From a virus, in IMG/VR virus record IMGVR_UViG_3300005935_000064, positions 1 through 34,327 of that record: a stretch of DNA of 34,327 bases. One strand, written 5' to 3'. Below, piece after piece: positions 11,477 through 28,049 of the stretch. The notes under the pieces are model-generated. The model saw only the letters and a list, made by a program, of their open reading frames with translations. It did no database searches and was not told the origin of the DNA. Each line of letters opens with the position of its first letter. The stretch's first letter is position 1. A program made the position numbers and the translations under genes.

Positions 11477-11510
11477 TAGTTTTTTTGTGCCTATGTAAGA
11501 TTGTTTCATT

Positions 11511-11797
11511 GGTAAACGGTAACCGGTATGCGGTAAGCGGTAATGTTTCTGTGGGTCCAGACATCTGCGGGGATATATATTTTAAAATTTTTGGTTTATT
11601 CAGGTAGTGTTTACTACTGTTAGTTATTATATTACTATATTAATTATAATATATTATTACTAATAGATATAAGAGTATACACAGAGAAGAGCAAACACTG
11701 ACAAGCCCTCCCACACTCACTGGGTAAAAGGTCAAACCGAAACCGCCCAAATGTAAGGACCCAAAGACATATTACCACTTACCGTTTACCGTTTACA
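11511..11797. other. Candidate replication origin with iterons
   Basis: The left array (11511-11545) is five tandem 7-mers: GGTAAAC, GGTAACC, GGTATGC, GGTAAGC, GGTAATG. The right array (11770-11797) has four inverted units: TATTACC, ACTTACC, GTTTACC, GTTTACA. Between them, 11571-11690 is extremely AT-rich and holds hairpins at 11604-11617 and 11636-11653 (TATATTA-ATTA-TAATATA). Initiator-binding iterons beside an AT-rich unwinding stretch is the standard theta-origin layout. No initiator gene is recognised in the window. Confidence 0.6.
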
Positions 11798-11820
11798 ATT
11801 TTACAATATTACAAGATTCG

Positions 11821-11858: not shown

Positions 11859-12023
11859 TTACTGAATTCTCCAATCAACACAGTATTCTGTCACTGCTCC
11901 GAAGTTATTCAGCCATAACATATTGCCCTCTTTTCGATCATACTTGTCGCTCGGCTTGTTTAACCACCTAAGCCAGGAGGTTATGTTTAGTTTCCGTTTT
12001 ATTTCAGAGTTTAAATGTACGGG
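11859..12023 (-). pseudogene. Protein-like reading frame without a start codon
   Basis: 54 codons between TAG and TAA read like a real protein (EIKRKLNITSWLRWLNKPSD, then LWLNNFGAVTEYCVDWRIQ). The only ATG, at 11921, is preceded by GAGGG at 4 nt and would give just 20 residues. A 10-bp inverted repeat (11850-11859 with 11989-11998, AACGGAAACT) brackets most of it. It may be a 5'-truncated gene, a 20-residue peptide gene, or a structured RNA. Confidence 0.35.
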
Positions 12024-12038
12024 CTAAGTTAAGTTAGT

Positions 12039-12329
12039 TTAGCAAGTTTTTCGATTCATTCTTCTTAGGTATGAGTAGTTGATTGCCAGTGCTTCGAAGT
12101 TACCTGATTTGATAAGTTCATCTTTTACTGCTCGCTCAGTATCTTTGAGCTTCCACTGTATATCTCTTGCTTCCTGTTTTAGATCTTGCATCTTAGTGAC
12201 TAAGTCAAATATCTTACTGCTTGTTCCTAGTTGTGATATTTTACTCTGAAATTGTTCGCTCATTGGTGCTGACATATTGTACTCCATTCCAGCCCGCACA
12301 CTTAACCCTGAAATATTCATGCCCTTCAC
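12039..12329 (-). CDS. Unknown helical protein, GTG start
   Basis: 96 residues from GTG at 12329, with AAGGG 6 nt upstream; ATG at 12320 is an alternative but lacks proper spacing. A flexible N-terminus is followed by a coiled-coil-like helix (about 43-75: DLVTKMQDLKQEARDIQWKL). Its ribosome binding site and start lie wholly inside the right arm of a long inverted repeat shared with the leader of the upstream gene, so its translation could be controlled by RNA folding. Confidence 0.65.
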   Translation of the reverse strand: MKGMNISGLSVRAGMEYNMSAPMSEQFQSKISQLGTSSKIFDLVTKMQDLKQEARDIQWKLKDTERAVKDELIKSGNFEALAINYSYLRRMNRKTC

Positions 12330-12341
12330 AATGTACCCTTA
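12316..12341 (-). promoter_or_regulatory. RNA arm a' (3' side of gene 12357-12935)
   Basis: The transcript of this segment can pair with arm b' (12969-12994) over 26 positions: 22 Watson-Crick, 3 G-U and one U-U. It contains the AAGGG and GTG start of the downstream gene, so the helix would hide them. Confidence 0.6.
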
Positions 12342-12356
12342 GGTTAAGTTACTTAG

Positions 12357-12935
12357 TTACTTGCTTGCTTCGACTGCCGCCTGCATAAGTTCTTTCAACT
12401 TCTCTGCATCTTCGGTAGTGAATTCGGGCTGGCCAGGAATATTTGCCATTGCTTTCTTCATAACCAAACCTTCAAGGCTAACAACCTTAGAAGCTTCTCG
12501 AATTGCACTTGCGAGTGCTTTGGCCTCGGCATTTCCGGTGCTATTCGCTCTGACCTTACCAATGACACTTACTTTTCCGGTAGCGGTGAGTTCAAGTCCC
12601 ATCTTAGAAGCTTCATTGTAATTATCCTGCAATGCTTGTATCTTTTCCTTTTCGTCTTTTACCGCGCTTACCGAGTCCGATAACCATTGTTTACTTCCGT
12701 AATACTTCATAACCTGAGTGTCAAGGACTTTCAAGTCGAAGTATATCAGCTTACCGCAGGGGAAACTTGCTATGGCCATGTCACCGAGCTTTGACCATGA
12801 TACTTGCTTCTTTTCGTTCGCTTCGCCGTCTTTGACTTCTGCAATAACTTCGATAACTGTGGGAGCTTTAATACTCTCTTCATTGAAACCGTCGATAACT
12901 TCATTCATATCATTCATATTCTGATGTTCATTCAT
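12357..12935 (-). CDS. Unknown protein
   Basis: 192 residues from ATG at 12935, chosen because AAAGGGG lies 8 nt upstream; an ATG at 13022 would run through the leader repeats. The N-terminal 40 residues are acidic and probably disordered. The rest has a strand-rich core (LIYFDLKVLDTQVMKYYG) and an Ala-rich, helical C-terminal half (GNAEAKALASAIREASKVVS). There is no transmembrane or nuclease motif. The gene is bracketed by inverted repeats b' and a'. Function unknown. Confidence 0.7.
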   Translation of the reverse strand: MNEHQNMNDMNEVIDGFNEESIKAPTVIEVIAEVKDGEANEKKQVSWSKLGDMAIASFPCGKLIYFDLKVLDTQVMKYYGSKQWLSDSVSAVKDEKEKIQALQDNYNEASKMGLELTATGKVSVIGKVRANSTGNAEAKALASAIREASKVVSLEGLVMKKAMANIPGQPEFTTEDAEKLKELMQAAVEASK

Positions 12936-12968
12936 TTGTTGTACCCCTTTCAAGAGTCGGAATGATTG

Positions 12969-12994
12969 TAAGGGTACACAATGAAAGGCATGAA
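12969..12994 (-). promoter_or_regulatory. RNA arm b' (leader of gene 12357-12935)
   Basis: In the transcript, UUCAUGCCUUUCAUUGUGUA followed by CCCUUA. It pairs with arm a' after the gene. Its core AUGCCUUUCAUU also resembles arm c' (GUGCCUUUCAUU) only a few bases away, so alternative pairings are possible. Confidence 0.6.
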
Positions 12995-12997
12995 TTC

Positions 12998-13022
12998 GAG
13001 TTTGCACCTTAATGAAAGGCAC
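12998..13022 (-). promoter_or_regulatory. RNA arm c' (3' side of gene 13034-13234)
   Basis: In the transcript, GUGCCUUUCAUUAAGGUGCA followed by AACUC. It pairs with arm d (13256-13280) over all 25 positions with four G-U pairs, closing a helix around the 66-residue gene. Confidence 0.6.
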
Positions 13023-13033
13023 GAAAATTTAAT

Positions 13034-13234
13034 TTATTCTTTTACTTTAACTTGCCTGATTGTATAATCGGCACGTGTCATAATTGCTAAATCCAATGAT
13101 GAACGTACTTTAACCCATTCATTCGCGGGCGCATTGAGATATTTTAACCAAGCATCTCTTTCCTTAATTGCTCGTTCACGACTTATAAAAAGTCCAATCG
13201 GTTCACCGCATTCGTAAAGTTCCCATACATACAT
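13034..13234 (-). CDS. Unknown small protein
   Basis: 66 residues from ATG at 13234, with AAAGAGGTG about 6 nt upstream. MYVWELYECGEPIGLFISRE looks like the start of a small beta-alpha protein; the end is basic. The frame stays open upstream, and ATG at 13375 (GAAGGGA 7 nt before it) could give a 113-residue version, but those extra codons overlap the palindrome and arm d and look less protein-like. Function unknown. Confidence 0.65.
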   Translation of the reverse strand: MYVWELYECGEPIGLFISRERAIKERDAWLKYLNAPANEWVKVRSSLDLAIMTRADYTIRQVKVKE

Positions 13235-13255
13235 GTTTTTCACCTCTTTCAATTG

Positions 13256-13280
13256 GTGCCCTTCATTAAAGCACAAACTC
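13256..13280 (-). promoter_or_regulatory. RNA arm d (leader of gene 13034-13234)
   Basis: In the transcript, GAGUUUGUGCUUUAAUGAAG followed by GGCAC, ending just upstream of the AAAGAGGTG ribosome binding site. It is the partner of arm c'. Its UGAAGGGCA core also resembles arm a'. Confidence 0.6.
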
Positions 13281-13304
13281 GCTTGACAAGTCGTATCGTG
13301 CCGC

Positions 13305-26780: not shown

Positions 26781-28049
26781 ATGTCTGAATGGGACGTTAC
26801 TAAAATTACATATAATGAAGGTGACAGGATTTCAAGTATCACTAATCCTATTTGGGATGAGAAGCATGAATTCAGTGGTGTTCCTATAGTTAACACTTAT
26901 ATTCCTTGTGGGTATTGGTCTAAGAATTATGTTTCAACTTCTACTCCTATAGTAATACCTACTTATACTGTATATGGTTGTGGCAGGAATTTGTCATCTG
27001 AACTTGGTAGCACTTCTTTAAACGGTTATCCTTACGCTTATACCATTCGACCTTTATTAGGTGTAGGACCAAGTTTAAAAGTAATTGCTGGAAGTAGTCG
27101 AAGTTTTAGCATTCAATCAACTGGCATGTTATGGGGAACAGGTCTAGGAACTGCTGGTCAATTAGGTATTGGAATTGATCAATCTGCTACTGAGTGGTAT
27201 CTAATTGATGTATCTATATGGTCAAATATTATTACTGGTGGGTCTTTTACTTTAGGTATTAAGGACGATAATACTTTATGGGGAACAGGTAGTAACGTAT
27301 ACGGGCGACTTGGTATGCTTGAAAGTGTTGCAGGTGTTGGAGAATTTACAGCTCTTTTGGGTGGTGCAGTTACAGTTGCTATGGCTAATGAATATGAGAC
27401 TCTTGCTAGTTCAGGTAGTACTTATGGAACTGGAAGAAATCAGTATGGAGATTTAGGTATTGGTAGTCAGTCTGCTTCATACGGGTTTGCTGAACTTCCC
27501 CATATATTTGTTCAAATGGCTGGAGGACTTCAGCATATTGTCGGAATAGATACTGATGGAAAACTCTGGGGTGCAGGAAGAAATAACGTGGGTGAATTAG
27601 GTTTAGGTCCTGTAGCGTATGATGAAAGTCCAGAGGGTTTTGATATAGAGAGAATTTACACTGAATTTGAGCAACTAAGTGCAGATACTTGGACAAAAGT
27701 ATATTGCGGAACTGGTTGCACTATGGCACTTAAATCTGATGGTACGCTTTGGGGTACAGGATACAATAGATGGGGTCAATTAGGATTAGGTCATGGAGAT
27801 CAAGTAAGTTATTTTACTCAAATGAGTCCGGCTACTTGGATTGATTTCTCTGCGGGATACGGTCATACTCTTGGAATTAAACCAGATGGGACTGTATGGG
27901 GAACAGGATTGAATAGTAACTATCAATTAGGTACAGGTTACGGTGATACAGATAACAGATTTTCATTTATTCAGTTAACGGATGGAACAGATTGGATCGG
28001 GGTTTCTGCCGGATTGAATCATTCATTATTTCATAGAACACTACAGTAA
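26781..28049 (+). CDS. RCC1-type seven-bladed propeller tail protein
   Basis: 422 residues, ATG at 26781 after CTGGAGATAG. Residues 8-56 repeat the module of the preceding protein (TYNEGDRISSITNPIW; PCGYWSKNYVSTSTP). Seven copies of the RCC1 signature GxGxNxxGxLGxG follow, at about 66, 119, 168, 216, 264, 325 and 374, the number needed for a closed RCC1 propeller. RCC1 repeats are best known in eukaryotic exchange factors but also occur in phage and bacterial surface proteins. A receptor-binding or tail-tip role is inferred from context. Confidence 0.85.
   Translation: MSEWDVTKITYNEGDRISSITNPIWDEKHEFSGVPIVNTYIPCGYWSKNYVSTSTPIVIPTYTVYGCGRNLSSELGSTSLNGYPYAYTIRPLLGVGPSLKVIAGSSRSFSIQSTGMLWGTGLGTAGQLGIGIDQSATEWYLIDVSIWSNIITGGSFTLGIKDDNTLWGTGSNVYGRLGMLESVAGVGEFTALLGGAVTVAMANEYETLASSGSTYGTGRNQYGDLGIGSQSASYGFAELPHIFVQMAGGLQHIVGIDTDGKLWGAGRNNVGELGLGPVAYDESPEGFDIERIYTEFEQLSADTWTKVYCGTGCTMALKSDGTLWGTGYNRWGQLGLGHGDQVSYFTQMSPATWIDFSAGYGHTLGIKPDGTVWGTGLNSNYQLGTGYGDTDNRFSFIQLTDGTDWIGVSAGLNHSLFHRTLQ

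Follow-up and report, generated by a model that had tools for sequence, protein, structure and literature searches.

The locus lies in a virus record of 34,327 bases, the whole of which is referred to here as the window. P22-like portal and terminase genes lie on the + strand, and the - strand holds a run of small genes that includes those for DNA ligase and an HNH endonuclease; the enclosed genes stand at the start of this run. We also note on the late strand (26781-28049) a 422-aa protein with RCC1-type beta-propeller repeats, which is unusual among phage structural genes. All parts of the arrangement are on the - strand and are given here in the order of transcription. Arm d (13256-13281) is the leader arm of gene 1, a 66-aa ORF (13034-13234), and is followed beyond that gene by its 3' arm, c' (12997-13022). 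Arm c' abuts arm b' (12969-12995), the 5' leader arm of gene 2, which encodes a 192-aa protein (12357-12935); its ribosome binding site (RBS) region at 12927-12950 comprises the Shine-Dalgarno (SD) sequence AAAGGGG (12950-12944) and the ATG (12935-12933). The 3'-UTR arm of gene 2, a' (12315-12341), abuts in turn the leader arm of gene 3 (12289-12314, best paired at 12305-12289). Gene 3 is a probable 78-aa ORF (12039-12275) followed by a 3' arm at 12001-12027, of which 12011-12027 was computed and the extension to 12001, with a bulge, was made by eye. In the original prediction this gene ran from 12329, with its RBS and GTG inside a'. This start is probably wrong, since the ATG at 12275 with GGAGT upstream is likelier from the sequence; the 3' arms of relatives also contain RBS-like letters but start no conserved ORF.

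Gene 2 products range from 130 to 192 aa across homologs. Pfam and PHROG gave only weak hits for the protein, and a fold search with two models of gene 2 proteins returned no match; AlphaFold2 modelled the L036 homolog with a mean pLDDT of 81. By these searches the family has no known relative or fold.

The helix formed by d and c' (13281-13256 with 13022-12997) is paired at all 26 positions through 22 Watson-Crick and four G-U pairs. That formed by b' and a' (12995-12969 with 12341-12315) spans 27 nt, with 23 Watson-Crick pairs, three G-U pairs and a single U-U mismatch. Both are real and slightly longer than predicted, 26/26 in place of 25/25 and 26/27 in place of 25/26, with the same four and three G-U pairs. 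All seven transitions in the two helices are G-U in the - strand transcript, the only strand on which they had been claimed to keep pairing, and the scores of 56 (d/c') and 52.5 (b'/a') fall to 38-39 for the same arms on the + strand. Besides the two genes originally described as enclosed, gene 3 is enclosed as well, by a weaker helix of 17 bp (12305-12289 with 12027-12011; 13 Watson-Crick, four G-U). When the whole window was simulated 40 times with an order-1 Markov model, the best helix (span up to 1000) scored 42.5, with a median of about 35. Apart from a large palindrome at 11501-11814, d/c' and b'/a' are the strongest long-range - strand helices of the window, and both are present in the MFE fold of 12300-13300 (-). 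Arms c' and b' do resemble each other in sequence, as had been noted, and so do d and a'. No Rfam 15 family matched the window above its gathering score.

Used singly as protein queries, genes 2 and 3 recovered only a near-identical record, which differs at 3 positions in 12.6 kb, and no named phage. More distant homologs of gene 2 were sought with several baits, namely the portal, an alignment search, the small terminase and a broader gene-2 alignment, and then in a genome collection, which yielded a Desulfobacterales MAG contig. The small terminase, which adjoins the early region and stays the neighbour of gene 2 in syntenic loci, was the productive bait; relatives reached through the portal gave no information where their early-region DNA was missing. 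Seventeen further distinct homologs were obtained, giving 18 sequences with the window, and their protein identity to the window's gene 2 product extends from 62% down to about 21%. They come from phage contigs and from the Desulfobacterales MAG contig, the latter perhaps also of phage origin; the phage collection that was searched contains no record with a gene 2 homolog. Four loci (L049, L055, L060 and L063) were collected after the pattern had been noticed and by protein similarity only. The leader arm and the 3'-UTR arm of gene 2, b' and a' in the window, are termed arm5 and arm3 below.

In all 18 distinct sequences gene 2 is enclosed by a helix of 25-33 nt between leader and 3' UTR, including 4/4 of the later-found loci. 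Arm5 ends 17-41 nt before the ATG, with the exception of L049 (65 nt), and arm3 begins 6-30 nt after the stop codon in most loci, mostly within less than 20 nt (43 nt in L063). The automatic gap test missed the helix of L047 because an extra small gene precedes arm3; the helix is visible in the sequence (reverse complement of 1-1153) and encloses two genes. The arms of L032, L036, L037, L046 and L047 have hardly any or no sequence in common with the window's, and yet each matched pair forms a duplex of -33 to -43 kcal/mol. Over all loci, matched arm5 x arm3 duplexes reach -33 to -48 kcal/mol, against about -4 to -20 kcal/mol for arms that are clearly unrelated. Covariation among relatives had been proposed as a check, and compensatory changes, in which both sides are altered and the pair is kept, occur at 13 of 22 pairs among nine alignable arms. 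The homologs could have lacked the arms or changed them without compensation; the opposite is observed, and the b'/a'-type helix is a conserved RNA structure enclosing gene 2.

A second pairing, which the original prediction had not seen, involves arm5 and the RBS of its own gene. In most homologs arm5 has complementarity to the gene 2 SD and its start codon. The arm5 x RBS duplex amounts to -18.3 kcal/mol in the window (shuffle p 0.003), -23.1 in L017, -21.4 in L028 and -18.0 in L040, each with p <= 0.003 against shuffled arms. Since the duplex energy alone is not significant in every locus, e.g. G008, L046 and L047, a partition-function test was added. In local folds the RBS is less accessible with the native arm5 than with the mean of shuffled arms in 14/14 loci, with a Fisher p of about 1.5e-9 over 12 loci that is too small because the loci share ancestry, and the three held-out loci gave p values of 0.003, 0.003 and 0.09. 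The closure is weak in two loci, L032 and L036 (p about 0.15), and borderline in five, L037, L043, L046, L047 and L060. The ability of the leader arm to close the gene 2 RBS is well supported by these folding models.

The effect of arm3 was followed in folds of the whole message. Like the local folds, these use standard parameters at 37 C for RNA alone and leave out ribosomes, RNA chaperones and RNase III. In messages that end ahead of arm3, the RBS (-14 to +3) is mostly paired. When arm3 is present, RBS access rises in 17/17 loci (14/14 and 3/3 held-out), the smallest rise being that of L033 (0.39 to 0.40), and the gain is lost with shuffled arm3. A changed RBS access on adding the 3' arm is accordingly what the folds predict, with an access in the open state of only about 0.4-0.7. 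Arm3 resembles the RBS because both pair with the same leader arm.

On the strength of these models, we somewhat favor the reading that the gene 2 mRNA is a bistable 5'-UTR/3'-UTR switch, in which the 3' arm frees the RBS and an RNase III cut possibly follows. In the nascent or 3'-truncated message, b' would act as an anti-RBS arm that folds onto the SD and start codon downstream (12927-12950) and keeps ribosomes off. Once the message is complete through its 3' UTR, a', an RBS mimic with an equivalent in 18/18 homologs, would capture b' and open the RBS, the b'/a'-type helix (about -33 to -48 kcal/mol) being longer and more stable than the local duplex (about -9 to -23 kcal/mol). The presence of the 3' end would thereby license translation of gene 2, and host RNase III, by cutting the long helix, could then lock the RBS open and release the cistron. 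That the 3' arm opens the RBS in vivo, so that only complete messages are translated, is an inference, as are the effect on protein output, the trigger that sets the timing and the RNase III cut. The purpose could be to time translation, to verify that the message is intact or to ready it for RNase III. The translational switch of the original prediction is thus supported for gene 12357-12935, by way of b' hiding the RBS of that gene; no support was found for a switch in which a' covers the start of the gene that follows, and for gene 13034-13234 and the third gene enclosure was found but no clear RBS-hiding arm.

It is also conceivable, if rather unlikely, that the helix is solely a stalk for processing or stability, i.e. 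an RNase III substrate or a 5'-3' clamp guarding the mRNA ends, with the RBS pairing being secondary. Pre-16S and pre-23S rRNA are flanked by processing stalks, long helices that are cut by RNase III, and the likeness extends to a long helix around a transcript unit, tandem units and adjacent arms. A nearly unbroken, G-U tolerant helix of two turns or more, as in such a stalk, surrounds the unit in 18/18 sequences. In L046 and L047 arm3 lies directly before a terminator-like hairpin and T run; together with the extra gene inside the L047 loop, this position also speaks for the switch, in which arm3 would mark where the transcript ends. Other genes are enclosed as well, by helices of 25-28 nt around gene 1 of the window, the first genes of G008 and L032 and a later gene of L040, and the abutting arms of such tandem genes show no clear hiding of the RBS: none was predicted for the leader arms of gene 1, gene 3 and L040 gene 4. 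RBS hiding as a trait of all enclosed genes was therefore unsupported when the leader arms of the neighbours were tested. Enclosure without RBS hiding suggests an additional general role of the helix, most simply processing or end protection, which is compatible with the switch. What the stalk alone leaves unexplained is the complementarity of the leader arm to its own SD and start in most homologs. The present case further differs from the rRNA stalks in that protein-coding genes are enclosed and the arms are predicted to affect RBS access.

The arms of neighbouring genes may also compete. The 3' arm of gene 2 shows complementarity to a further arm after gene 3 in five loci (L017, G008, L033, L040 and L045), so that the arms form a chain of alternatives. 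From this it could be argued that a' has a choice of partners, b' behind it or the arm following gene 3 ahead of it, and that translation of genes 2 and 3 is mutually tuned; in L017 the helix with the downstream arm even extends to the SD of gene 3. We regard this competition across cistrons as improbable, as several loci have no visible downstream arm, the downstream helices are shorter (9-21 bp) and L046 has a terminator in place of gene 3.

The arms could, in principle, be DNA-level inverted repeats, such as the terminal repeats that bound mobile cassettes, or sites for protein binding. Gene 1 and its pair of arms do look like a module placed between a conserved upstream motif and b', and arms of separate genes resemble each other. 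In L017, L040 and L043 the motif, GACACGATACGG, is found a short way ahead of the gene-2 leader arm; in the window its variant GGCACGATACGA (13291-13302) precedes gene 1 instead, a shift that suggests insertion of the enclosed gene 1 as one unit. A strand-symmetric search that scores G-U and A-C alike gave a G-U to A-C ratio of 37:6 on the mRNA strand of the gene-2 helices, and of 44:9 once the three held-out loci were added (17 loci), the counts coming from related loci and not being independent events. The large downstream palindromes in eight of the same genomes, by contrast, gave 28:23 with many transversions. The G-U bias is confined to the helices around genes and to their mRNA strand, unlike what strand-neutral terminal inverted repeats would give. 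The compensatory changes and the G-U excess over the palindromes argue for RNA structure, and the RNA-level enclosing helix originally predicted for gene 12357-12935 is upheld. Moreover, the arms diverge past recognition between loci while pairing is kept, and gene 2 stays beside the small terminase in syntenic loci. A DNA-level origin of the arms is, on this evidence, highly improbable, and chance complementarity is ruled out by scores above those of 40/40 simulated windows and by the conservation in 18/18 sequences.

Other repeats of the region were also recorded. The large palindrome of the window is imperfect (11501-11572 / 11743-11814), contains short tandem GGTAA-type repeats and lies after the enclosed genes; comparable palindromes occur downstream of gene 2 in G008, L035, L036, L037, L040, L049 and L055. 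Being without G-U bias, it is possibly a replication origin or another DNA-level element. A further palindrome, GGTCAAnnnnTTGAC, has seven matches at six sites in the window (5030, 10747, 11826, 14948, 23995 and 28508) against 0.16 expected, with similar sites in relatives, e.g. L017 at 5172 and 5518, and resembles an operator or a dispersed repeat.

Several known systems share parts of the anatomy of the proposed gene 2 switch. Messages that depend on RNase III include T7 gene 1.2, lambda N and adhE, in which translation may likewise depend on a helix and its cleavage; gene-enclosing arms with an RBS-mimic 3' arm are not known among them. In the order of events there is a resemblance to the hok and AapA/IsoA type I toxin mRNAs, in which an SD-hiding leader is followed by a long-distance 5'-3' helix. 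While an AapA mRNA is being transcribed, hairpins hide its SD; the 5'-3' helix then takes their place and silences the full-length mRNA until the 3' end is trimmed (PMC6733600). By folding, the gene 2 message likewise forms a long-distance 5'-3' helix at full length. The long-distance helix of hok and AapA, however, is the untranslatable form, activated by 3' trimming, whereas that of gene 2 is predicted to open the RBS, its full-length form being the more open one. Type I systems combine a small hydrophobic toxin with an antisense RNA antitoxin; the gene 2 product, of 130-192 aa, is no small peptide. In icaR of Staphylococcus aureus, the 3' UTR covers the SD, creates an RNase III site and represses (PMC3868564). 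Pairing of 5' and 3' UTRs within one mRNA is common to both, with control of translation predicted in the case of gene 2, as is, possibly, the RNase III substrate. The icaR 3' UTR pairs with the SD itself, whereas the partner of arm3 is the anti-RBS arm5, upstream of the SD. The gene 2 arrangement is therefore treated here as a variant of the 5'-3' UTR pairing switches, related in anatomy but not a member of the hok, AapA or icaR types. No description of such an arrangement in phages was found in the open-access literature text.

The bacterial 5'-3' UTR pairings compared here are all repressive; the pairing in the phage group has the opposite predicted polarity and is kept throughout the group with strong compensatory evolution. 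We tentatively suggest, at lower confidence than for gene 2 itself, a general phage device of 3'-end-licensed translation, in which genes are enclosed singly and an RBS-mimic 3' arm draws off the anti-RBS leader arm. The natural arms are ready-made for building such switches, and whether translation of a phage or bacterial message can be made to require its completeness becomes directly testable. If true, the arrangement would constitute an mRNA-integrity checkpoint.
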